From: a virus
Length of the DNA stretch: 25,276 bases
Strand: one strand, 5' to 3'
Virus record (IMG/VR): IMGVR_UViG_3300021963_000602
Location: 1-25,276 of that record
Made by a program: the position numbers and the translations under genes. Of this stretch, positions 5,074 through 20,324 are shown piece by piece (the stretch's first letter is position 1; every line of letters begins with the position of its first letter). The notes under the pieces are model-generated. The model saw only the letters and a program-made list of their open reading frames with translations. It ran no database searches and had not been told where the DNA came from.

Positions 5074-5308
5074 TACTCTCTCCAAGGATTACCGCTGTAT
5101 CTGTATCGTTAAACCAAAGCATCTTGCCTCGGCAAGCAATGTTGTAGTCCTGACCGTTAGCGTCCAACTCGCTCCAAGTTGGCACTCGGATTTGCAAGTG
5201 CCGTGCAAGGTGTTCGTTGCCGTTTTCAAAGACTCGCCAGACATGCTCTACGGTTCCTCGTCCTGGTTGCCCTCGGCTTTTATTAAACCGAATTTTGTAA
5301 TGATTCAC
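5066..5308 (-). CDS. Conserved phage protein of unknown function (80 aa)
   Basis: The product begins MNHYKIRFNKSRGQPGRGTV and continues EHVWRVFENGNEHLARHLQI. Its later part contains DYNIACRGKMLWFNDTDTAV. The pattern (a YKIRFNKSRG start, a VWRVFE-G core and a DYNI-C segment) is familiar from aquatic phages, where it is uncharacterised. It overlaps the tail chaperone-like gene by four bases (ATGA). The mixed beta/alpha composition looks like a compact single domain. Confidence 0.75.
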   Translation of the reverse strand: MNHYKIRFNKSRGQPGRGTVEHVWRVFENGNEHLARHLQIRVPTWSELDANGQDYNIACRGKMLWFNDTDTAVILGESND

Positions 5309-5691
5309 TCAGGACGAGTGGGCCAAACAATATTGTCTGGGAACCCAGCTTGCAAACGAATCTCGCGCAATCCACGGCGATACTCAATCCACGCAGCTTT
5401 ATCGCCAGCAGTCATAGGCACATCGGGCAGCATTGACCAATCGGATTCTTGCAACAGTTTTTTGGCACGATCCCATTCCAGTTGAGCTTGCGTTGCTTGA
5501 GCCGGAGGCGGTGGTGCTTCACCAACCTGAATCCAACCTTGATCGTTATAGGCTTTGCCTAACCATGACAAATCACCAAGCCGATCAGCAAACCCATGAA
5601 GACCAAAGATTGGCCCCCAATTTTCAGGCAGAGGCTGCGGCTCGTTTAGTGCTTCGCCGGTTGACAGTTTTTTTAGTTGCCACAGGCTCAT
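5305..5691 (-). CDS. Tail assembly chaperone-like protein (Phage_tail_APC type)
   Basis: The ATG at 5691 with an AAGGA ribosome site gives 128 residues; an upstream ATG at 5706 has no such site. The C-terminal half contains AKKLLQESDWSMLPDVPMTA and then KAAWIEYRRGLREI, ending with GFPDNIVWPTRP. This is the familiar pattern of phage tail/fibre assembly chaperones: DWs-lpD, W-eYR--LR and a closing WP-P. The N-terminus (WQLKKLSTGEALNEPQPLPE) resembles the short beta-domain of such proteins. Position after the adhesin-like gene fits a chaperone that helps fold or attach fibres. Confidence 0.8.
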   Translation of the reverse strand: MSLWQLKKLSTGEALNEPQPLPENWGPIFGLHGFADRLGDLSWLGKAYNDQGWIQVGEAPPPPAQATQAQLEWDRAKKLLQESDWSMLPDVPMTAGDKAAWIEYRRGLREIRLQAGFPDNIVWPTRPE

Positions 5692-6124
5692 GATCTTTCC
5701 TTTCAATATTTAATCCCGGTTGCTGCTCTGGAGGGGGTAGTATTGCACCTATATCTTTATGAGGAGCCATATCATTAGCATGTGGGGCATGACCTACTCC
5801 AGGAAAAGGCTGATTACCCCTGTAATGAACTAATTCTTCTTCAGTGTATTTCCAATCTCTCCACGATGAAAAATCTTTTCGTGGTTGAATATGAATATGG
5901 CAACCTACATTTGCTGCGAGTTGGTGAATCAACTCAATGACTTCTACGGGCTGCATTACACACCAAAGATGAGTGCCATCATTAGCACGCATAGACAACT
6001 CACAAGTACCACCAAATGCAGTTCCGATTGTTACAGATCTTGCACGATTTAATTCTGCTGTAGCGTTTGCAATATCTTGTTGCGAACGAATAACTTCAAA
6101 TGCCTTTTTTGTCTCTTTTTTCAT
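5624..6124 (-). CDS. Conserved phage protein of unknown function (166 aa)
   Basis: The start is placed at ATG 6124, which overlaps the adhesin stop (ATGA); the frame is open to a non-ATG codon further upstream. The core contains RSVTIGTAFGGTCELSMRAN, then WCVMQPVEVIELIHQLAANV, GCHIHIQPRKDF and SWRDWKYTEEEL, and looks like one alpha/beta domain. The tail is Pro-rich and ends in a basic segment (RRSTKRAAASA). The last 68 bases overlap the chaperone-like gene in another frame. The core pattern seems conserved among aquatic phages but I know no function. Confidence 0.72.
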   Translation of the reverse strand: MKKETKKAFEVIRSQQDIANATAELNRARSVTIGTAFGGTCELSMRANDGTHLWCVMQPVEVIELIHQLAANVGCHIHIQPRKDFSSWRDWKYTEEELVHYRGNQPFPGVGHAPHANDMAPHKDIGAILPPPEQQPGLNIERKDHEPVATKKTVNRRSTKRAAASA

Positions 6125-7086
6125 TGGGGGTTCCAAGAAACTTTTAGTTGTCCGTTAACGGTTACAGGATAGGAACCTCCTGGTGTTACCGTTACACAAT
6201 TAAATGTTGTTGGGTTAGCGTTTGACCCTGGGTTGCCCGGATTTCCAGCATTTCCAGCACCTCCTCTACCGCCTCCGGCAGCACCTACACAAGTCTCAAG
6301 CCCCCCAGCCCCACCACCGCCAGCGCCGCTAACATTTGCAGCAGATCCTGAAGCTGCATTCTGAATACTAATAGTGCATTCACAGCAAAAAAATTTATTA
6401 AAATAATAAAGGACTACCGCTCCCTGACCGCCTGCTCCCCCACCAGGGGTGCCACCTGATGCCGGACCGCTAGATGGATAGCATATTCCTATGCTTACAC
6501 CAGAGTTTGTTAATCCTGCACCACCTCCACCACCTCCACCAGAATAATAGCGATATATATTATATTGAGGGGGAATAGGGGTGTTTTGTTGTGATTTTCC
6601 CCCACCAAATCCGCCTCCTGTCGGTCCTGTCGGTCCTGCCGGATTTGCTAGTCCACATCTTATTCCCGAAGAATTACAATTAGTTGGTCCTTTTGGATAA
6701 CATTGGTATCCAGCTATACCTGCGTTGCCTTGATTACCGGCAGTACCACCGTTTCCTCCTGCCCCACCAGGAAAAGTTTTACAAAACCCTGAAGATGCAA
6801 GACCAGCATTACCTGCTGCCCCTGTATTACCTGCGCCACCAGCCGCCCCTCCAGCACCTCCATTTAATCCTTGTGGAGCTGCACCATTTCCTCCTTTGCC
6901 GCCAGCACCACGACCACCAGCATTACCTGATCCTCCAGCATTACCAGATCCACCATAACCAACAAGACTAATTTTTGAAACCCCAACGGGTACAGTAAAA
7001 GTACCTGGAGCATTAAATGTTTGACAACCACCGGGGACAAGCGACACACCCCCAAACAATACTACTTTAGGTGTTCCAGCAGGCAT
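6121..7086 (-). CDS. Glycine-rich adhesin-like fibre tip protein
   Basis: This 321-residue protein opens with a short beta segment of the glycine-rich domain type: FNAPGTFTVPVGVSKISLVG. It then becomes extremely Gly-rich (GGSGNAGGRGAGGKGGNGAA and many similar runs) up to about residue 295. A closing beta segment (TVNGQLKVSWNPQ) ends it. Gly/Ala/Asn repeats of this kind form polyglycine II sandwiches in the gp38 adhesins of T4-like phages, so a receptor-binding tip is plausible. It also carries 11 cysteines, including CCEC near residue 230, which is unusual for a protein assembled in the cytoplasm. The gene follows four oxygenase genes (TAATG junction) and precedes a tail chaperone-like gene. 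Confidence 0.75.
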   Translation of the reverse strand: MPAGTPKVVLFGGVSLVPGGCQTFNAPGTFTVPVGVSKISLVGYGGSGNAGGSGNAGGRGAGGKGGNGAAPQGLNGGAGGAAGGAGNTGAAGNAGLASSGFCKTFPGGAGGNGGTAGNQGNAGIAGYQCYPKGPTNCNSSGIRCGLANPAGPTGPTGGGFGGGKSQQNTPIPPQYNIYRYYSGGGGGGGAGLTNSGVSIGICYPSSGPASGGTPGGGAGGQGAVVLYYFNKFFCCECTISIQNAASGSAANVSGAGGGGAGGLETCVGAAGGGRGGAGNAGNPGNPGSNANPTTFNCVTVTPGGSYPVTVNGQLKVSWNPQ

Positions 7087-7682
7087 TATGACCTCCGCAA
7101 TTCAGAAGGAAAACCAAGATTAGGGCGTCTATCAAAACGATAATTTGTATTTGGGCCGGTTATATCAACATAATGCAACATGAACTGAATATTCATTTGG
7201 TCACGCTTAAAAGTGTCGCGCCAATGTTTTGTTTCACATCCTTTATATACAACCGCATCTCCAGGATTAAGCGTATACGAACACGGTTCGTTATCTTTAT
7301 AGTGCATCCATATAGGAGATGGACGACCTTTTGAAGCAACATTGATTGTTACGCTAATTTCACATGACGGACGATCAACATGCGGTTTAAGTTCTTCCCC
7401 AGGTTGATAAATACGCGTATAAGAATAAGTTGGGTAAAGTTGTTTTCCGCACACTTCAGATACTAAAGGCATACTGCTTAATAATACTGTTTCAATTAAC
7501 GGGTCGGCGTAATAAGCAAATTCAGTTGTGAAGTCTTTTGATTCAGCCTGCCATTCTTGCCTACGGAGCTTGTTTTCTAGGTATATTGAAATTGTTTGTG
7601 TTGTTATTGAATCTAAAAACTCTTGCACCAACACACATCCAAATCTTTCAAATTGTTCTGAGTTTGTAATTGTTTCAATCAT
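7086..7682 (-). CDS. 2OG-Fe(II) oxygenase-like protein, HxD type
   Basis: ATG at 7682 overlaps the previous gene's end by eight bases and gives 198 residues. Metal-site candidates are His101 and Asp103 in ELKPHVDRPS and His153 in ETKHWRDTF. These sit in the usual double-stranded beta-helix order with LNPGDAVVY between them. Such enzymes use 2-oxoglutarate, O2 and Fe(II) to hydroxylate protein, sugar or small-molecule targets. The conserved basic 2OG-binding residue expected about ten positions after the distal His is not certain (Lys159 or Arg160). The C-terminal tail after residue 175 (RFDRRPNLGFPSELRRS) is extra. This is the last of four adjacent oxygenases; the substrate is unknown. Confidence 0.8.
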   Translation of the reverse strand: MIETITNSEQFERFGCVLVQEFLDSITTQTISIYLENKLRRQEWQAESKDFTTEFAYYADPLIETVLLSSMPLVSEVCGKQLYPTYSYTRIYQPGEELKPHVDRPSCEISVTINVASKGRPSPIWMHYKDNEPCSYTLNPGDAVVYKGCETKHWRDTFKRDQMNIQFMLHYVDITGPNTNYRFDRRPNLGFPSELRRS

Positions 7683-8271
7683 AATAAAACCACCCAGTAA
7701 CAATATATTTTGAACGATCCCCAAGCACAGTATTGCCTCTATGGGTGTGAGTAAACGAAGCGGGCCATAAGATCATCTGGTTTTTCGTAGGGCTAAACCT
7801 CTGTCTTTGATACAAAAACTCGGTTTCACCGCCTTCTTCTGAGGCCAAGGTATTGAGATACAACATATATACAAGCACTCGGCCTGCATGGTCTCCGCTT
7901 CCTTGCTCCCCGTGCCACACATGGTAACCGCCCCCTGGAGGGGTACGCTGCATTTTCATAACATTAGCGCGAATTTTTCCGTCTTGAAGGCTTGAAAATT
8001 TTTGCGTGTACTCGTCATAGCAAGCTTGTAAACCATCAAAAAACATAGGGACGATGCGTTTATCTTCAAAATCTTGAGTATTTTGCCCGCGTAAATCTAA
8101 ACCAATTTGATAATCATTTTTAACCTTTTCAGGTGCTTTTTCTGATTGCCAACGGTTTGCACCTGCGCTGTCTTTTTCAAGACGATCAAACTCATTGATT
8201 AGATGCTGGCAATACCCTTCTGGATAAACATCGTTGTAAACGCCAATAAATCCGTTGTACTCAATGTTCAT
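7675..8271 (-). CDS. 2OG-Fe(II) oxygenase, prolyl-4-hydroxylase-like, HxE variant
   Basis: The start is ATG 8271, which overlaps the previous TGA (ATGA), giving 198 residues; a longer reading to 8295 would run into the upstream gene. The core resembles phage and bacterial P4H-like dioxygenases: MQRTPPGGGYHVWHGEQGSG, then LYLNT, GGETEFLYQ, FSPTKNQMILWPASFTHTHR and KYIVTGWFYYD. Predicted iron ligands are His120, Glu122 (where Asp is usual) and His175, with Lys188 as the 2OG contact. The family hydroxylates proline or other residues in proteins; the target here is unknown. Neighbouring collagen-like and glycine-rich fibres make a virion substrate conceivable. Confidence 0.86.
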   Translation of the reverse strand: MNIEYNGFIGVYNDVYPEGYCQHLINEFDRLEKDSAGANRWQSEKAPEKVKNDYQIGLDLRGQNTQDFEDKRIVPMFFDGLQACYDEYTQKFSSLQDGKIRANVMKMQRTPPGGGYHVWHGEQGSGDHAGRVLVYMLYLNTLASEEGGETEFLYQRQRFSPTKNQMILWPASFTHTHRGNTVLGDRSKYIVTGWFYYD

Positions 8272-8855
8272 CGAAATGCTGGTCCTGAAAGCCATGCCAC
8301 AAGACTTTGCCTACTACCTTGTGTTACAGGTGTTACTTGATGAAGTGTATAAGAAGGAAACACCGAAATAAGCCCCCGCTGTTTTCGTACGTTTACAGGA
8401 TTTCCTCCCGTTAAAACTTGAAGATTACCGCCTTCATACTGCGCTGGATCTGTTAACTGAAGTACCGCTGAAAGTTTTCTGCTTACGCTGCGCTTACCAC
8501 CATAGTCTTGATGCCAGCCGTACATACCATTCTCAGATTGGTCGTAATTTGTAAGCTGGAGTGCCTCACCAAAGCCTGTGAGGTCAAACCTATAAAACTG
8601 CGAGTTAAGAGATGAGATAACATGAGCTAATTTGTCAAATACCCAACGCGTTTCGTCAGTGCAGCCTATCCATGAAATATGAGAACGTCTAATTTTGGCT
8701 AAATGCTCTGCATCAGGATTGCCCCCGACTTGCGCTCTTTGGTCTGCCTTAATTGCTCGCTCTTGCAACCAATCAAGCTCTTTGTCGTTGAACGCACCTT
8801 CCCACCACACAAAAGGTTCTATTGGTTCTGCATAAGGAGTCAACATGTACTGCAT
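8268..8855 (-). CDS. PKHD-type 2OG-Fe(II) hydroxylase
   Basis: This 195-residue protein has the textbook layout of a PKHD-type (PiuC-like) hydroxylase. His115 and Asp117 lie in MYGWHQDYGG, followed by RKLSAVLQLTDPAQYEGGNL, then His172 in SYTLHQVTPV and Arg182 in QGSRQSLVAWLSGP. All metal and 2OG residues are intact, so it should be active. ATG 8855 has an AGGGA-like ribosome site and overlaps the upstream gene by 16 bases. Members of this family are frequent in aquatic phages but their substrates are not established. It sits in a run of four oxygenase-like genes. Confidence 0.92.
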   Translation of the reverse strand: MQYMLTPYAEPIEPFVWWEGAFNDKELDWLQERAIKADQRAQVGGNPDAEHLAKIRRSHISWIGCTDETRWVFDKLAHVISSLNSQFYRFDLTGFGEALQLTNYDQSENGMYGWHQDYGGKRSVSRKLSAVLQLTDPAQYEGGNLQVLTGGNPVNVRKQRGLISVFPSYTLHQVTPVTQGSRQSLVAWLSGPAFR

Positions 8856-9439
8856 TGTCTGTCCCTATGCGAAATAATAAAGTGAATACATCTTGTTGGA
8901 GACTGCGCGTTTCCATTGCTTAACTGATGCTGCATCCATGAATTGCTAAACAACACCGTTCCTGGAGCAACATTATTAAAGTGAATTGACCCTGTTGCAT
9001 TGCTTACTTCACCAGTATTCTCGTAGTCTAATTCTGACATTGCTTTATTTGAACGGGTGTCATAGTAGATTGGGTAAGCTCCATTTTCCGGCGTTTCTAA
9101 AAACATCCATCCACATATCTGACTGTTTTTATGCACATGAACATTTGTGCCCGCATTTTTTTGCAATTCTTGCGCCCACAAACCCTGAAAATAAAAATCA
9201 TATTTTGCAGTGATGTACCCTTGACCTCTTAAAATATCAACTGCGGAACACAAAAGATATTGCATCAAATTTTGCATTCTTATGTCAGAGCCAAGGTGCC
9301 CGGACTGAATAAAAGAAAATATTGCGTCCTGTCGAACTTTATCAAGCTCAGACATACAGACCGGCAAAATTTCTTCAATCAGGTCAGGGCGCTCATCTCG
9401 ATACACAATCGCCGGAAAATACGCAAACCCTTGCATCAT
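8840..9439 (-). CDS. Putative 2OG-Fe(II) oxygenase, TIGR02466-like
   Basis: This 199-residue product resembles the TIGR02466 family of putative 2OG-Fe(II) oxygenases. It has His101-x-His103 in NVHVHKNSQICGWMFLETPE, YYDTR near residue 125, VAPGTVLFSNSWMQHQLSNG with His171, and Arg183 in PTRCIHFIIS. The family typically shows HxH rather than HxD, so which residue supplies the acidic ligand is unclear. ATG 9439 overlaps the stop of the small coiled-coil gene (ATGATG). The N-terminal 80 residues are helical. It ends in RDRQCSTC. It is the first gene of the four-oxygenase run. Confidence 0.82.
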   Translation of the reverse strand: MMQGFAYFPAIVYRDERPDLIEEILPVCMSELDKVRQDAIFSFIQSGHLGSDIRMQNLMQYLLCSAVDILRGQGYITAKYDFYFQGLWAQELQKNAGTNVHVHKNSQICGWMFLETPENGAYPIYYDTRSNKAMSELDYENTGEVSNATGSIHFNNVAPGTVLFSNSWMQHQLSNGNAQSPTRCIHFIISHRDRQCSTC

Positions 9440-9669
9440 GAATTAATATACGTCACAAGTGTTTGAGCAAAAGCCTGAATATCAGCCGCTGATACATCAC
9501 GAGAATCTACAGGTTTGCTACGAGCGTTTTCAATCAAGGTCTCTTTCGCCAAACGAACTACCTCAAATTTTGCACGGACTGCTTCGGCCTGCATTTGATT
9601 GGCATGTCGTGCGTTTTCTACGGCCAACTGAATATCCACTTGTGCTTGCTGTTCTGCGGTTAAAGCCAT
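9436..9669 (-). CDS. Small coiled-coil protein next to fibre gene
   Basis: The product is 77 residues from ATG 9669, chosen because AGGAG lies eight bases upstream; the ATG at 9675 would be only two bases from that site. The sequence is nearly all helix (ALTAEQQAQVDIQLAVENAR, then KFEVVRLAKETLIENARSKP). It ends with AFAQTLVTYINS. I do not recognise a named family. Position between a short fibre and the oxygenases suggests a fibre accessory or chaperone. Confidence 0.65.
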   Translation of the reverse strand: MALTAEQQAQVDIQLAVENARHANQMQAEAVRAKFEVVRLAKETLIENARSKPVDSRDVSAADIQAFAQTLVTYINS

Positions 9670-9683
9670 TTTCATTACTCCTA

Positions 9684-10400
9684 TTAAGCTGTCATATTCT
9701 TCATGGCAATATTGCCATAATACGTTGTTCCCCCATCAGGGGTAAAGAAAACCCAAATATCAATAGCATTTGCTGCGGTTGAACGTGATAGTGACGCAGC
9801 TCCACCGGGAAACTTAAACGAACCTCCAGACCATGCGACTGTGCGTCCTGCGGTTCCGTCATTTGTAAGTATAAGTGTAAACGATGATGACCCAGAAGAT
9901 ACCGGGTATCGCAACGTAATCGTAGCGTTGCCTGTAAGTGTCGCTGTAAACACACCGCCGCTAACCACATCAAGATTGATTGCAGTACCTGTATTGCCCA
10001 GAGCTACAACTGTGTCGGCATAACCAATGGCTTTGATGTAAGTGCCAGAAGTTACGGCGGCAGAAGTAGCTAACAGGCTTGACGAGGAAATGGCTGTGCC
10101 TGCACCGCCGCCAAGCAAAACATTATTGGCCGCTAAAGTGCCCGATTGAGAGACTAGACCGCCCGTCTTATTAAGCTCTGAACCAAGTGCCGTTGCTACT
10201 AATCCGCCGGTTGTCGTGTCCGTGCCTAGTCGAGCGCCAATCAACTGAATAGCTGGGGTTCCGGCGTTATCCTTGTAAAAAAGGCGTCCGTCGTTATAAT
10301 TAATTGCAAGCTCGCCTGCATTAATATTGGCCGCCGTTGGCGCTGCTGAAGCAGTTGAGCTTCTGTAAAGCTGAATCGGCGTGTAATTGGTTGCTGGCAT
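9684..10400 (-). CDS. Short tail fibre-like protein
   Basis: This 238-residue protein opens with YTPIQLYRSSTASAAPTAAN and GELAINYNDGRLFYKDNAG, the typical opening of phage fibre repeats in which a virion-proximal motif is followed by a beta-stalk. The rest is Gly/Thr/Ala-rich. A C-terminal beta-sandwich follows, from about residue 145 (ATLTGNATITLRYPV, FTLILTNDGTAGRTVAWSGG, WVFFTPDGGTTYYG). GGAG six bases upstream supports the ATG. It lies between the sugar-transfer genes and the oxygenases, so it belongs to the fibre module. Whether it is a separate appendage or joins the collagen-like fibre cannot be told. Confidence 0.78.
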   Translation of the reverse strand: MPATNYTPIQLYRSSTASAAPTAANINAGELAINYNDGRLFYKDNAGTPAIQLIGARLGTDTTTGGLVATALGSELNKTGGLVSQSGTLAANNVLLGGGAGTAISSSSLLATSAAVTSGTYIKAIGYADTVVALGNTGTAINLDVVSGGVFTATLTGNATITLRYPVSSGSSSFTLILTNDGTAGRTVAWSGGSFKFPGGAASLSRSTAANAIDIWVFFTPDGGTTYYGNIAMKNMTA

Positions 10401-10427: not shown

Positions 10428-10886
10428 TTAAGCCGCCTTGTCTAAGTGCAAAAGCCCTGTCAGAGCTTCTAAAACGACTTCTGGCGCGACAAATTTACTG
10501 GGGTCATGCTCATAGCACTCCCACCACAAAAACTGATTCTGAGCGAGATTGGCTCGATCCTTAAGCAGGTTGATGTTCTCTGGGTGGCCAAAGATCTGCG
10601 GGTCCGATACCGACCAAAGCACGATGCCTGGCCTGCCCTCATCCCACCCTAAATGCTGCATGAAGCTATCGCACGCAATCCATGTCGTGCATTGCCTCAC
10701 TAACTGACGCAGCGCTTGAATCGGCAGGTTCTTGCGAAAGTCTGGCACGAGTTGCTGCTCACCCTCAACACCCACCTGAATAACCGGATTAGGCAAATGC
10801 GGGATCAGCGCTTCCCAGAACGGATAGTCCTTGGGATTGCGCTTACCGTTATTAAGCTTCTTAGCAAAGGGCGCTATCAAAATCAT
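10428..10886 (-). CDS. GT9 heptosyltransferase-like C-terminal domain, separate gene
   Basis: ATG 10886 overlaps the preceding TGA (ATGA) and gives 152 residues; a reading from 10928 would overlap the upstream coding end without its own signal. The sequence starts MILIAPFAKKLNNGKRNPKD and continues with YPFWEALIPHL, CDSFMQHLGW (72-81) and IFGHPENINLL (98-108). This resembles the nucleotide-sugar-binding half of family 9 (ADP-heptose:LPS heptosyltransferase-like) GT-B enzymes, with the D-SF-QH motif and the FGHP-N region. The N-terminal half is missing here, but a matching segment ends the upstream gene. It probably works with that product; substrate unknown. Confidence 0.75.
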   Translation of the reverse strand: MILIAPFAKKLNNGKRNPKDYPFWEALIPHLPNPVIQVGVEGEQQLVPDFRKNLPIQALRQLVRQCTTWIACDSFMQHLGWDEGRPGIVLWSVSDPQIFGHPENINLLKDRANLAQNQFLWWECYEHDPSKFVAPEVVLEALTGLLHLDKAA

Positions 10887-11851
10887 AGGTACATCTTCCT
10901 GTAAGCACCTTCCAAGCTTGTCTTCCACTTCCAGCGGTCCATCTTGGCATAGATGTTATACATTTCGATGTCGCCAAATAAGTCTCTGGCCTCAGCAATC
11001 GACCTGCAGGGAAGAATCTCAGGATAGCAGCCAAACACCAACGGGTTCTTAATCTCTGGCAAGACATGCGTAAACACAATGTGATCACCCATACCGTTGT
11101 TGAGAACCACAATCGTATGATCTTTGTGCGCTAGCATGTTGCGAAAAATTTGCTCATCATGCGCAAACATCTCTTGTTTATCTTCCATGCGAATACCGCC
11201 AGACGGCGCTTTAAGGTGCCAGGTTACTGCATTAGGCACCACTAATAAGTCATAGCCCTTTTGCTTTAAGCCAAAGCTGAAAAGCGTTTCCTCGCGGTGA
11301 GCTACCCGAGACAGGCCTAGGTTGTAGTCATAAATCCCTGCGCGGTACAGGAAGCTGCAGTGCAAGTGGTCTACATGCTTGACCTTCTTGATGCGCTGCC
11401 ATTGCGGATGTGGCTCGTGGTCAATCGCATCGATCTTGCCGGTAGGATTGGCTTCTTCAAAGTAATTGGGTGGCATAAGCACTGAGCCGCCCACACCGCC
11501 AATCATCGGGCCTGTATGCGCTAGCAAGACCTCAAGCACGTTTGGCTCAGGAATGGCGTCATCATCCACGCGCCACACCCAATCAAAGCCCATGCAGTTG
11601 GCCATTTGATGGTTGTGATGCTGGCCCTTCTTGCCGGCCCAAAGCCACTCCCAAGCAATCTGCTTGGCATCCATCATCCAATACAAGTTCTTGTATATCG
11701 GATCGCTACGCAGGTCTTGATTCTCGTCGTTATCATCAAAGATCACGATCTTGTCTGGCTTGCGGGTTTGGTTCATCACCGCCTGCAAAGCCAAAGGCAG
11801 CGTCGTATGTGACCGCCCCCTGGTAGAGACTGAGCACAAAACGCTAGGCAT
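10883..11851 (-). CDS. GT2-like glycosyltransferase with a GT9 N-terminal-like tail
   Basis: ATG 11851 overlaps the previous stop and gives 322 residues; the longer reading would use a TTG. Residues 1-240 are a GT-A fold, family 2-like: SVLCSVSTRGRSHTTLPLAL, IVIFDDND, the metal-binding RVDDDAIPEPN (Asp96-98), then REETLFSFGLKQKGYDLLVV and an NAVTWH acceptor-side motif. From about 244 the sequence changes to DHTIVVLNNGMGDHIVFTHV, which resembles the N-terminal Rossmann start of family 9 glycosyltransferases. The next gene supplies a matching C-terminal half through an ATGA overlap. It likely transfers one or two sugars to a fibre or glycan; donor and acceptor are unknown. Confidence 0.82.
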   Translation of the reverse strand: MPSVLCSVSTRGRSHTTLPLALQAVMNQTRKPDKIVIFDDNDENQDLRSDPIYKNLYWMMDAKQIAWEWLWAGKKGQHHNHQMANCMGFDWVWRVDDDAIPEPNVLEVLLAHTGPMIGGVGGSVLMPPNYFEEANPTGKIDAIDHEPHPQWQRIKKVKHVDHLHCSFLYRAGIYDYNLGLSRVAHREETLFSFGLKQKGYDLLVVPNAVTWHLKAPSGGIRMEDKQEMFAHDEQIFRNMLAHKDHTIVVLNNGMGDHIVFTHVLPEIKNPLVFGCYPEILPCRSIAEARDLFGDIEMYNIYAKMDRWKWKTSLEGAYRKMYL

Positions 11852-13133
11852 GCCAGCGTCCAATCAGCAAGTTGAGCCTGTTTTGATCGTCAATCGGTTT
11901 AGGCACGGCTGAGATGTTGCCTTGCTCGTCAATATAGTTGAACTCAAAGCCAGGGAAGTGCGACTCATTCAAGCCATGCAATTTGTGATGCGGACCCCAA
12001 AAGCCTACCGGCTCATTCATGGGTACGGTAAAGAGCAAGGTCTTGCAGTGCTGCTTGAGCTTTTGCAAGACTTCCAAGCCGTTATCAAGGTGCTCAATGA
12101 CCTCAAAGGCGATGATTGTGTCGTACTGCTGCAGGTCATACTTGTTAATGTCGGCATGCACAAACTGCGCCTTGGCACTCCAGCCCTGCTCCTTGGCCAC
12201 ATCCACAATGATTGGATCGTAATCAAGGCCTGTGTATTCCACACCTTCAGGCATGAACTGCACGCCATAACCGCTTGAGCAGCCAAGCTCAAACACACTC
12301 TTGCCCCTCACATGCTGCGCTGCCCACTGATACCGCGTCACTTCCCGCGGGAAGACCGGGTCGCCCTTCAGAAAAACAGCACGCTCCCAATAGTTTGATA
12401 AGCGCCAGCGATACCAGTCCGGGTTGAACTTCTTGGCAAGCTTGAGCGAGTTGCGCAGGAACACGTCGTTGTAATCAGGCACAAGCGACGTATCAAGCAT
12501 CGTGCCCTCGCCCTTGTGATAGATCGGAAACGCGCCCGTAAACTGGTTGCCGCTCCACTCCTTGGGCGAGCATTCATGCACCTCAAAACCTGCCATCTCA
12601 GCCTGAATGCAGAATTCGGTATCTTCACCGCCGCCAACGCCGTATTCGGTATTCAATAACCCAATCCGGTTAAATACACTACGCCTGATCATCACGCAAA
12701 AGAACACCGCAAAGTCACGGCCTGCAGGCTCTGATGGCCCCTTGATCACGCAGGAAATGCCGCACTTCTCGTGATGCGCAAATGGCTGGTTGAGCATGTC
12801 CATCCACTGGCTTTTATTCTGCGGCAACAGGACTGTGTCGTTGTTGAGCAGTACGATGCGATCTGTGCGCGTGGCGACAATCCCTGCATTGCATGCACCT
12901 GAATAGCCTAGCGGCTGATCATTCCAGACAACCTTGATGTGTTTATCAAAGCCAATGCTTGCAAAGCGAGTCGATAGTTCTTGCAGGTAAGCCTGTGTGC
13001 CATCTGTGCAGCCGTTGGCCGAAATGACCAACTCAACATCGGCCATGTCGGTGTACTTGAAGATAGACTCAAGACAGGGCTTGAGCAGATCCTCGCAATG
13101 ATTGTAGGTCGGAATAACAATGCTGTATTTCAT
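11844..13133 (-). CDS. GT2 glycosyltransferase / SAM methyltransferase fusion
   Basis: The 429-residue product has two domains. Residues 1-245 are a family 2 glycosyltransferase: YSIVIPTYNHCEDLLKPCLE, LVISANGCTDGT, the metal-site NND at 97-99 and GVGGGEDTEFCIQAEMAGF at 165-183. Residues 265-429 are a class I methyltransferase: SVFELGCSSGYG (SAM motif I, 279-290), YTGLDYDP, then IIAFEVIEHLDNGLEVLQKL and LLFTVPMNEP. The pairing suggests addition of a sugar that is then methylated, as in O-methylated surface glycans. It begins directly at the collagen-like fibre's stop (shared base), which suggests the fibre may be the acceptor. The acceptor is inference. Confidence 0.88.
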   Translation of the reverse strand: MKYSIVIPTYNHCEDLLKPCLESIFKYTDMADVELVISANGCTDGTQAYLQELSTRFASIGFDKHIKVVWNDQPLGYSGACNAGIVATRTDRIVLLNNDTVLLPQNKSQWMDMLNQPFAHHEKCGISCVIKGPSEPAGRDFAVFFCVMIRRSVFNRIGLLNTEYGVGGGEDTEFCIQAEMAGFEVHECSPKEWSGNQFTGAFPIYHKGEGTMLDTSLVPDYNDVFLRNSLKLAKKFNPDWYRWRLSNYWERAVFLKGDPVFPREVTRYQWAAQHVRGKSVFELGCSSGYGVQFMPEGVEYTGLDYDPIIVDVAKEQGWSAKAQFVHADINKYDLQQYDTIIAFEVIEHLDNGLEVLQKLKQHCKTLLFTVPMNEPVGFWGPHHKLHGLNESHFPGFEFNYIDEQGNISAVPKPIDDQNRLNLLIGRWHA

Positions 13134-15139
13134 TAGAACGTCCCACCATCAACCCCGCCAGTAATTGCATTAGTGCTGCCGTTAACCGACAAGCCTGCAT
13201 CCACTAGCACTGACTGACTGCCTGTTGTTGAATTTGCTGCAAACAAAATAAAACCTGCGGTTGCACTTGCTGTTGTGGTGACATTTGTTGGCGCAACACC
13301 TGAAAACCCGCTAATGCCTGATGCACCGCTAAAGCCAGATACGCCTGAGCCGCTGAAGCCTGAGATACCAGAAAAACCTGAAATACCAGAAAATCCTGAG
13401 AAACCTGAAATACCAGAAAATCCTGAGAAACCTGAAATACCAGAGAACCCGGATCGCCCGCTAAATCCAGATATACCTGAATCACCTGAGAATCCTGAGC
13501 GACCAGAAAATCCAGATATACCTGAGAACCCTGAGATGCCAGAAAAACCTGATATGCCTGAGAATCCAGATATTCCAGAAAACCCAGAAATACCAGAGAA
13601 ACCTGAAATGCCAGAGAAACCTGAAAAACCAGAAATGCCAGATCCAGAAAATCCAGACGTTCCTGAAAAGCCTGATATGCCGCTAAAACCAGAGATACCG
13701 CTAAACCCAGATATTCCACTAAATCCTGATCTTCCGCTGAATCCTGAGAATCCAGAAAACCCTGATGTACCGCTTTGAGCTACGCCATCAAGGCCTGAAA
13801 ATCCCGAAAAACCACTTTGCCCAGAAAAGCCGCTAATGCCACTAAAACCAGAGATACCGCTAAAGCCACTAATACCCGAAAATCCAGAAATACCGGAATA
13901 TCCACTGGTCCCAGAAAATCCTGAAATACCTGATCCTGAGTAACCAGAAATTCCCGATCCTGAAAATCCTGATAATCCAGAAAAACCACTGATACCAGAA
14001 AAACCACTGATACCAGAAAAACCTGAAATACCTGAGAAACCTGATATTCCAGAAAATCCTGAGATACCGCTAAATCCCGAAAACCCTGAAATGCCAGATC
14101 CAGAAAATCCAGAAATACCGGAGCCTGAATACCCCGAGATACCAGAAAATCCGCTAAAGCCTGATAAACCTGAGTAGCCCGAAATGCCGCTGAATCCAGA
14201 GATGCCGGAGTATCCCGAGGTGCCTGAATAGCCGCTGAATCCGCTAAAGCCCGAAACGCCTGAGCCTGAAAACCCTGAGATTCCACTGTAGCCAGAGATA
14301 CCAGAAAAGCCTGAAATTCCTGAAAACCCTGAGGTTCCGCTAAATCCTGATACTCCTGATCCAGAAAAACCTGAAAATCCTGAAAAGCCAGAAATTCCTG
14401 AGTAACCTGAAATTCCACTGTAACCCGACAATCCTGTCCATGCGCCAGCTACAACCCCTTCGTAAATCCCCAGATCCGTGTTGTATCGGATCATTCCATT
14501 CTGCGGCGAAGAACGCTGCACAGTTGTACCCGCAGGAATTTTTACTGATCCCGTGCCTGGCAATATTGGGTTATCCGAAATGCCTATCGTAGGGTCTGCG
14601 CCATCACCCGTGCCATTTGCGACATCAATTTCATTGGCCGTGCCTTGAAGTATTACCACCCCAATTGCATTACCTGACGTGCGTGAAATCAAGCCTGAAC
14701 CTGACGACAATGCTAAATCTAAAACAAGGCCTGATAGCAATACTGTAGGATTCCCCGCTATCCCATCGCCATCAGTAACGCTTAAACCCGTCGTTCCGGC
14801 TTGAATAGAGCGGTTTGTAAGCGTTGTGGCGTTAGTCTTGACCTGAATGCCCGCTGCTGAATTTACGAGGCTTGCAGGCGCTCCTGACAAGGCTAGCGCC
14901 ACTGTTGAGCCAGGACCGTTGTCTGTGAGTGTTAAACCTGATCCGGTTGTTGCAAGTTGCCTCGAATCCGTAAGTAAGCCTTCACTGGTTGCCGTGATAA
15001 AGCTGTAATTTGTCGCTGGACTCGCCGCAATTGCAGCCACCGTTGTCTGTACGGTGCCGCCATCTTGAACGATGGGAACAAGCTCTGCGCCTGTTAAGGC
15101 ACCTGCTGCCGGTAACTGCGTAATCGTCTGATTAGCCAT
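13133..15139 (-). CDS. Collagen-like tail fibre with Gly-X-Ser triplets
   Basis: This 668-residue protein has an N-terminal module common in phage fibres (MANQTITQLPAAGALTGAEL, then VPIVQDGGTVQTTVAAIA) and a beta-rich neck to about residue 234. Residues about 235-613 are repeats of Gly-Phe/Ile/Tyr-Ser triplets such as GFSGISGFSGYSG. They are broken at several places by a GS dipeptide (SGSGVSG, SGSGISG) and once by LDGVAQSG. A short C-terminal domain follows (FILFAANSTTGSQSVLVDAG), ending in GGVDGGTF. The triplets fit a collagen-like trimer but contain no proline. Serine fills the third position almost throughout. Glycosyltransferase genes follow directly. It is most likely a long fibre stalk. 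Confidence 0.88.
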   Translation of the reverse strand: MANQTITQLPAAGALTGAELVPIVQDGGTVQTTVAAIAASPATNYSFITATSEGLLTDSRQLATTGSGLTLTDNGPGSTVALALSGAPASLVNSAAGIQVKTNATTLTNRSIQAGTTGLSVTDGDGIAGNPTVLLSGLVLDLALSSGSGLISRTSGNAIGVVILQGTANEIDVANGTGDGADPTIGISDNPILPGTGSVKIPAGTTVQRSSPQNGMIRYNTDLGIYEGVVAGAWTGLSGYSGISGYSGISGFSGFSGFSGSGVSGFSGTSGFSGISGFSGISGYSGISGFSGSGVSGFSGFSGYSGTSGYSGISGFSGISGYSGLSGFSGFSGISGYSGSGISGFSGSGISGFSGFSGISGFSGISGFSGISGFSGISGFSGISGFSGLSGFSGSGISGYSGSGISGFSGTSGYSGISGFSGISGFSGISGFSGISGFSGQSGFSGFSGLDGVAQSGTSGFSGFSGFSGRSGFSGISGFSGISGFSGISGFSGTSGFSGSGISGFSGFSGISGFSGISGFSGISGFSGISGFSGISGFSGISGFSGRSGFSGDSGISGFSGRSGFSGISGFSGFSGISGFSGFSGISGFSGISGFSGSGVSGFSGASGISGFSGVAPTNVTTTASATAGFILFAANSTTGSQSVLVDAGLSVNGSTNAITGGVDGGTF
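13300..14440 (-). repeat. Coding tandem repeat, Gly-X-Ser collagen-like tract
   Basis: The DNA here consists of short imperfect repeats, 9 or 18 bases long, encoding Gly-Phe-Ser and Gly-Ile/Tyr-Ser. Third codon positions vary widely (GGA/GGT/GGC/GGG, AGC/AGT/TCA/TCT/TCC), so the repeat is maintained at protein level rather than by recent DNA duplication alone. Edges are approximate. Confidence 0.9.
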
Positions 15140-19649: not shown

Positions 19650-20324
19650 TCATGTTTGAAATGACGAATTCAAATAATCAAAAGCGGCTTTAAGAATGTC
19701 CTTGTCATCACGAAACAATCCAAGACCACGATTACATTTAGTGCAGAGCAAACCTCTTGCCTTGCCTGTTTTGTGATCATGATCTACTGGCATTGCAATC
19801 ACCTTATTCCGTATGATAGCGGTTTCTGGCTGCTTGCAAATAGCGCAGACATTATTTTGCTTGGCAAGAGTTTCTTGATACCACTCATAAGTAACGCCAT
19901 AGTTTCTTCGTAAATCTTGATCCAAGTAATATTCAGGATTTGCGGCTCTCGCTTTGCGATACCACTCTCGCATATATTCTTTGTAATCCTCTGACGAAGC
20001 TCTACGCTCTTTCCAATAAAAATTGTCTTTGCCCCAAGGCTTTGTTGGATCTGCACGCCATGCAATTGAACCTTCTGGCTTTTCAGGAACATCTTTGACG
20101 AACTGCCAAAAATCTTCTCTCCAAGATTCTTGCATGTCCAACCGATGGTATCGCCGCAACCCACACCATGACTTATACGCCCAGTGCTTTTCTCGCGCTC
20201 CCCAATCATTTGGCCTCGTCTCACCAACATCTCCGTGACGCTGAACCCGCATGTAATGCTTTCGGCACAAGCCCTTTGCAATTGATGGCTGGGAACAGTT
20301 GTGTACATGACATTTCTCTGGCAT
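19650..20324 (-). CDS. Free-standing homing endonuclease, endonuclease VII-type
   Basis: This 224-residue nuclease has an N-terminal zinc finger-like part (C5, C10, C20 and H23, in CHVHNCSQPSIAKGLCRKHY). The C-terminal recombination endonuclease VII domain has Cys160 and Cys163 (NVCAICKQPE), Asp181-His182-Asp183-His184 (MPVDHDHKTGKARG), Cys194, Cys197 and Asn198 (LLCTKCNRGLG). These match the zinc ligands and active-site D-H-x-H and N of T4 endonuclease VII. A middle region (EYMREWYRKARAANPEYYLD) resembles the DNA-contacting part of phage homing endonucleases. Placement between the capsid gene and the next structural gene, away from replication genes, favours a mobile homing endonuclease over a Holliday-junction resolvase. 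Confidence 0.86.
   Translation of the reverse strand: MPEKCHVHNCSQPSIAKGLCRKHYMRVQRHGDVGETRPNDWGAREKHWAYKSWCGLRRYHRLDMQESWREDFWQFVKDVPEKPEGSIAWRADPTKPWGKDNFYWKERRASSEDYKEYMREWYRKARAANPEYYLDQDLRRNYGVTYEWYQETLAKQNNVCAICKQPETAIIRNKVIAMPVDHDHKTGKARGLLCTKCNRGLGLFRDDKDILKAAFDYLNSSFQT

Follow-up and report, generated by a model that had tools for sequence, protein, structure and literature searches.

Why should an aquatic phage encode four different oxygenases, one directly after the other, among the genes of its tail? The question is raised by the IMG/VR virus record IMGVR_UViG_3300021963_000602, the whole of which (25,276 bases) is the window analysed here. Its list of open reading frames (ORFs) holds four overlapping ORFs on the minus strand, whose products, OxyA, OxyB, OxyC and OxyD, resemble Fe(II)/2-oxoglutarate (2OG) oxygenases, and whose genes lie between that of a tail-fibre-like protein, fibU, and that of a glycine-rich, adhesin-like protein, Gly (Table 1). 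The answer that we favour, with modest confidence, is that the run is an adhesin-maturation cassette, the four oxygenases of which would hydroxylate residues of the adjacent Gly.

That phages may have multiple 2OG oxygenases, including runs of them in published pelagiphage genomes, is already known: there are 24 in cyanophage S-SCSM1 (PMC9602691) and eight non-orthologous types in phages of the HTVC023P type (PMC9599517), and the PHD-like structures of phage 2OG oxygenases have been remarked upon in the Phold paper (PMC12774648). Our search of the open literature found no paper linking phage oxygenases to the hydroxylation of fibres or adhesins, or proposing a phage adhesin as their substrate. 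These enzymes are among the commonest of the phage "auxiliary metabolic genes", and the cassette gives one large group of them a concrete, testable candidate substrate; should bench work bear it out, modification of an adhesin would be a novel role for oxygenases in phages.

Four proteins with an oxygenase fold

The original prediction had described four consecutive, overlapping 2OG oxygenase-like genes with His-rich metal sites that were not recent duplicates of one another, and that description is confirmed. The genes overlap by 16, 4 and 8 nt in the order A-B, B-C and C-D, the OxyD and Gly genes have one base in common, and OxyD has an alternative in-frame start, TTG 7724. Pfam matches above the curated cut-offs were obtained for OxyA (PF13759, 1.6e-9), OxyB and OxyC (both PF13640, 2OG-FeII_Oxy_3, at 4.8e-14 and 2.3e-12, respectively), and among the PHROGs OxyA matched phrog_81 and both OxyB and OxyC phrog_61. 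Profiles built for each family from 38-48 relatives and searched against the PDB led from OxyA to 3bvc/2rg4, from OxyB to the PKHD hydroxylase 3dkq (6.5e-13 over the catalytic half) and also to PiuC (9ghl), and from OxyC to the prolyl 4-hydroxylases (P4Hs) 5c5t (6.5e-4) and 5hv0 (0.03). The AlphaFold2 model of OxyA (predicted local distance difference test, pLDDT, 90) likewise had 3bvc as its best Foldseek match (6e-10). With OxyD, discussed below, all four have the Fe(II)/2OG-oxygenase fold as judged by profile search (A, B and C) or AlphaFold2/Foldseek (A and D), and none fell outside it. Pairwise BLAST among the four gave a sole signal, between OxyB and OxyC (E = 0.008 over 39 aa), which rules out recent tandem duplication. 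They are four separate families.

The residues of the metal sites are invariant or nearly so across relatives, with two refinements to the original description: OxyA has H-x-H where H-x-D/E is usual, and OxyD is without the usual Arg/Lys at H+9 to H+11. For OxyA this applies to H101, H103 and H171, the H-x-H...H pattern being invariant in 38 relatives and present in the homologue 3bvc as well; because it replaces H-x-D/E...H, OxyA is filed as an oxygenase-fold, TIGR02466-like protein. Invariant across the relatives of OxyB are the triad H115/D117/H172 and the candidate 2OG anchor R182, and across those of OxyC the triad H120/E122/H175, H177 and the candidate anchor K188. Closer assignments were rejected on score: OxyA reached 34.1 bits (2.3e-8) with TIGR02466, below the NCBIfam cut-off of 62.5 bits, and OxyB 63 bits (2.4e-17) with PRK05467, below the PiuC/PKHD cut-off of 143. 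The OxyB profile matches PKHD-type hydroxylases and PiuC, but OxyB sits far under the PRK05467 cut-off and in another genomic setting; OxyA has the fold and the H-x-H of 3bvc and 2rg4, solved relatives that are themselves uncharacterised.

The PHROGs label of OxyD is "ferrochelatase" (phrog_2954, 2e-45). Its only Pfam trace was to PF13532 (AlkB-type, 0.0017, below cut-off), and a profile of its relatives found nothing solid in the PDB. In the AlphaFold2 model (pLDDT 92), the top Foldseek match was the P4H of P. putida (4iw3, 7e-9), with structures of PHD2 close behind, such that the nearest solved folds are prolyl hydroxylases. AlkB ranks lower; its presence there, together with the Pfam trace, is what could be said for an action of the oxygenases on nucleic acid, in AlkB/TET-like repair or DNA modification, which we consider highly improbable given that the best structural matches hydroxylate protein and that the genes lie among those of the tail, not of replication.

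Across the relatives of OxyD, H101, D103 and H153 are invariant, and 13 divergent phage members of the D family, including the "ferrochelatases" of HTVC023P, HTVC033P, HTVC008M and P-RSM4, have H-x-D-R, H-W-R and Q...H motifs in common, the signature being invariant. Searched against Pfam, neither OxyD nor the HTVC023P "ferrochelatase" matched a ferrochelatase family at E ≤ 1, and the latter had no match at all at that threshold. The oxygenase fold, the lack of a ferrochelatase match in Pfam and the shared 2OG-type signature rule out OxyD as a ferrochelatase, and the label on phage D-type genes (phrog_2954/phrog_3531) seems, from sequence motifs and the model, to be wrong and apparently a propagated error. 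Wittmers et al. observed that a pelagiphage with a D-type gene always has an adjacent oxygenase, and described the D-type protein as a heme enzyme (PMC9599517); the predicted fold of OxyD corrects the label that underlies such a heme-metabolism reading. The chromosomal relatives of OxyD in bacterial metagenome-assembled genomes (35-37% identity) directly adjoin oxygenase genes of PF13640 and are near genes for glycosyltransferases or sulfotransferases, and the pairing of D with PF13640 seems to be old.

A cassette kept beside putative attachment proteins

Four scans of IMG/VR yielded 115 distinct A-B-C haplotypes, and in these the oxygenase run is, by its gene content, a conserved cassette: 105 have fibU, 109 have Gly and 106 the gene after Gly, and OxyD occurs in 65, with C adjoining Gly directly where D is lacking. 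The capsid proteins of the phages bearing it go down to ~38% identity with that of the window, and the cassette, with A moved, also turned up between fibre and fibre-assembly genes of a 165-kb record that carries a T4 gp23 capsid gene. That the same fibre-type neighbours are kept in another type of phage is a sign of a joint function of the parts.

A second group of phages has a similar association in another gene order. In the cultured phage HTVC033P, the genes of two proteins with 34% glycine precede those of B, A and D type, and a scan anchored on its D gene gave 80 marine loci, separate from the A-B-C haplotypes, in which the oxygenase block is mostly A+B+D. Of the 61 marine loci with sequence upstream of the block, 50 have a glycine-rich ORF there, at most two genes away, as against 1/69 downstream; in the first 48 mixed non-canonical loci such adjacency was marginal (p = 0.05). 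The window and the HTVC023P-type pelagiphages are alike in having families A, B and D side by side, but the group to which the window belongs differs in its order, fibU-A-B-C-D-Gly, in the addition of C and in a Gly with proline at Y of its Gly-X-Y units. The pelagiphage genes have been published as auxiliary metabolic genes, D as a heme enzyme, unlike the reading given here.

More remote relatives are found away from fibre genes, in the early region of MW202545, the baseplate/terminase region of HTVC008M and among sugar genes of S-SCSM1. The link to fibres therefore belongs to the cassette, not to the families at large. In HTVC008M, four consecutive 2OG genes and a D-type gene (56808-59681) run on the strand opposite to that of the adjoining tail/baseplate genes, and no neighbour of this run is annotated as glycine-rich.

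The published view of such enzymes in cyanophages and pelagiphages (PMC9602691, PMC9599517) is that they are auxiliary metabolic genes, which here would act on host molecules, be it 2OG level, nitrogen status, iron/heme or cell-surface glycans. The settings of the bacterial D relatives and of the S-SCSM1 genes, described above, would fit with this. It would not lead one to expect that over 100 haplotypes keep the genes at one site among those of the tail, that a T4-like genome has the entire cassette, or that D switches with the allele of Gly, and we regard host metabolism as an improbable explanation for the cassette. As for the original suggestion that glycans on the fibres are hydroxylated, it fared poorly, in that the glycosyltransferase genes of the window were found in only ~5 of the 115 haplotypes, and a pathway involving them is unsupported.

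Gly, its prolines and the gain and loss of OxyD

The Gly proteins are 32-34% glycine with a periodicity of 3, and are 265-484 aa in total length, with conserved ends and a variable middle. In 2513 Gly-X-Y-Gly units from 110 proteins, the two other positions are sharply segregated: proline makes up 29.8% of residues at Y vs 2.7% at X, and asparagine 45.8% at X vs 3.6% at Y, with GNPG 16-fold above composition shuffles. In a comparison set of 25 glycine-rich ORFs away from oxygenases, proline made up 1.1% of X and 2.3% of Y residues, and the glycine-rich partners of oxygenases at loci L059, L064, L066, L049/L054 and L051/L053 also favour proline at Y. X-Pro-Gly is the context used by collagen prolyl hydroxylases. 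A study of phage collagens held that viral and bacterial (non-animal) collagens have no preference for proline at Y for want of a prolyl hydroxylase (PMC3368898), a view on which Gly bears, its proline being almost only at Y and its gene lying beside P4H-like genes. The cassette resembles the collagen P4H and the bacterial P4Hs (of P. putida and B. anthracis) in the predicted fold of D and C and in the X-Pro-Gly context of the neighbour protein, and is unlike them in its low sequence identity and in its partner, a phage protein resembling an adhesin, in which the Gly-X-Y runs are short and there is no long triple helix. About 2.3% of Gly residues across the family are cysteine, some eight per protein and many of them in the variable segments, where there may be loop disulfides or metal sites.

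To our knowledge, T-even gp38 has no linked oxygenases. This adhesin (PMC12892980) and Gly are alike in having glycine-rich motifs with variable segments and in being encoded beside fibre or fibre-assembly genes, and from this gp38-like layout Gly would be the receptor-binding tip; Gly had no match to solved structures in a sequence search of the PDB.

On a B+C tree, the presence or absence of D changes 20 times (at least 11 times on supported branches), and on an A+B tree 26 times, so that D, which toggles while A-C stay, is dispensable and cannot be the obligatory step of the "sequential" hydroxylation that had been suggested; a strict sequential pathway is ruled out. The state of D was predicted from the three nearest neighbours for each gene segment and scored as balanced accuracy, which was 0.51-0.53 from fibU and 0.49-0.62 from A and B, climbed along C from 0.62 to 0.75 towards D, was 0.89 and 0.86 from the two ends of Gly, and along the gene after Gly fell from 0.82 to 0.68 (0.81-0.82 over its first two thirds). 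Proline occupies one N-terminal column of Gly in 46/66 proteins with D vs 7/44 without, and one C-terminal column in 51/66 vs 2/44, both columns having been chosen for their association with D, which makes the p-values optimistic. In 16 independent pairs on the A+B tree, the C-terminal proline goes with D in 13.4 (mean) and against it in 0.0; the Asn, Gly, Thr, Ala and Cys content of Gly had no link with D. By these trees and predictions, gains and losses of D follow the Gly allele and are independent of A, B and fibU, and D-linked Gly alleles carry extra prolines. Exchange of D and Gly as a block ties D to Gly, not to A, B or fibU. The link to virion attachment proteins that had been proposed at the outset is well supported from three sides: over 100 haplotypes are syntenic for fibU and Gly, another group of phages has the association in a different gene order, and D co-segregates with adhesin alleles.

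It could still be that the oxygenases modify fibU or another tail protein and that Gly just happens to share their late operon. fibU is as conserved beside the cassette as Gly (105/115), for A, B and C the correlation of distances is 0.46-0.49 with the fibU C-terminus and only 0.05-0.07 with the Gly C-terminus, and the cyanophage relatives of C adjoin large fibre genes. We think this unlikely all the same, since the state of D does not follow fibU, the constant neighbour in the marine set is a glycine-rich ORF, and fibU is low in proline (~2.6%), with no comparable repeat seen.

From fold, sites, synteny, the segregation of Pro and Asn and the co-segregation of D with Gly, we infer activity, substrate, target residues and physical effect as follows. 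The four oxygenases, Fe(II)-dependent and divergent from one another, have their genes among the late tail genes and would hydroxylate the Gly encoded immediately downstream, the likeliest targets being the prolines in X-Pro-Gly and the second candidate the asparagine in Gly-Asn-Pro/Ala units. The PKHD-like OxyB and the P4H-like OxyC may modify features common to all Gly alleles, and OxyD may serve those alleles with extra prolines near the conserved ends, with which it is inherited. Modification would stabilise a Gly-X-Y or polyglycine-II-like body bearing variable loops. A fuller version, which we put forward only tentatively, is a swappable adhesin-plus-hydroxylase system, wherein dedicated oxygenases make hydroxyproline (possibly also hydroxyasparagine) in a collagen/polyglycine-II-like receptor-binding protein, and D is gained or lost along with the particular allele of the adhesin on whose prolines it acts. 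If true, a bacterial virus would here be maturing a virion protein by means of hydroxyproline.

A number of observations weigh against hydroxylation of Gly by the cassette. OxyA, with H-x-H in place of H-x-D/E, is without the carboxylate of the facial triad, and OxyD is without the usual 2OG anchor at H+9 to H+11, R90, R155 and Q166 being invariant instead. The window's own Gly has few Gly-X-Y-Gly units, with 3 prolines at Y and 2 at X. The marine glycine-rich partners have little or no preference for proline at Y (that of HTVC033P none), remote relatives of A, B and D exist without glycine-rich neighbours, and the cyanophage relatives of C are near fibre genes but have no glycine-rich ORF. 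To these, and to the selection of the proline columns, must be added that D and Gly are neighbours and that much of the D-Gly signal is their exchange as a block, some of which may be due to physical linkage. Such linkage, at a recombination boundary, might even be all there is to that association, the extra prolines marking one of two Gly allele types with no functional coupling, and we consider this quite possible, if not what we expect; it concerns only the D-Gly evidence and is compatible with the explanation that we favour for A-C. D does adjoin Gly, and its state, which changes 20-26 times on the B+C or A+B trees, changes only 7-9 times on Gly trees and 7 times on a tree of Gly plus the downstream gene. 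The decay is uneven, however, in that C, directly upstream of D, predicts D worse (0.75) than does the C-terminus of Gly ~0.9 kb off (0.86), and the few switches within Gly run as hydroxylation would have it, D and proline changing together on the Gly plus downstream-gene tree in 3.8 cases for vs 0.0 against, a difference that is not significant and underpowered.

Other genes of the window

Upstream of the cassette are fibU, glycosyltransferase-like genes and a collagen-like fibre, and further downstream in the window are a holin-like gene and an endolysin (Table 1 gives the principal features).

Table 1. Coordinates of the oxygenase cassette and of neighbouring features in the 25,276-base window
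Feature	Position	Strand	Remarks
OxyA, TIGR02466/PF13759-like oxygenase, 199 aa	8840..9439	-	site H101-x-H103...H171; Pfam, PDB profile, AlphaFold2/Foldseek
OxyB, PKHD/PiuC-like 2OG oxygenase, 195 aa	8268..8855	-	H115-x-D117...H172, R182; Pfam, PDB profile
OxyC, prolyl-4-hydroxylase-like 2OG oxygenase, 198 aa	7675..8271	-	H120-x-E122...H175/H177, K188; Pfam, PDB profile
OxyD, "ferrochelatase"-labelled phrog_2954, predicted 2OG-oxygenase fold, 198 aa	7086..7682	-	H101-x-D103-R...H153-W-R; optional cassette member
Gly, glycine-rich adhesin-like protein, proposed substrate	6121..7086	-	conserved ends, variable Gly-X-Y middle
Conserved 170-aa gene downstream, overlapping Gly	5624..6136	-	in 106/115 haplotypes; co-segregates with Gly and D
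Phage tail assembly chaperone-like protein	5305..5706	-	Pfam PF16778, 5e-15
fibU, tail-fibre-like protein upstream of cassette	9684..10400	-	phrog_7760, 6e-8, and other tail-fibre PHROGs
Small ORF, 79 aa, between fibU and OxyA	9436..9675	-	detected in 25/115 haplotypes
Collagen-like fibre, (Gly-Phe/Ile/Tyr-Ser)n	13133..15139	-	Pfam Collagen, 1.3e-48; nearby, outside conserved cassette

The collagen-like fibre has serine at Y in 97% of its units and proline at neither X nor Y. Between it and fibU (10428-13133) are the glycosyltransferase-like genes, including a glycosyltransferase-methyltransferase fusion, which few relatives have. DNA-level searches found no annotated phages close to the window, and no Rfam matches or tRNAs were found in it; for its capsid protein, identity is 88% with that of a Manatee Spring phage, 75% with that of Caulobacter phage RW and ~40% with that of Pelagibacter phage HTVC023P. 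Immediately after the capsid gene (19650-20324) is a gene for an HNH and endonuclease VII-like protein. The G+C content over the cassette (7000-10000) is 41-43%, vs 46-53% elsewhere in the window.

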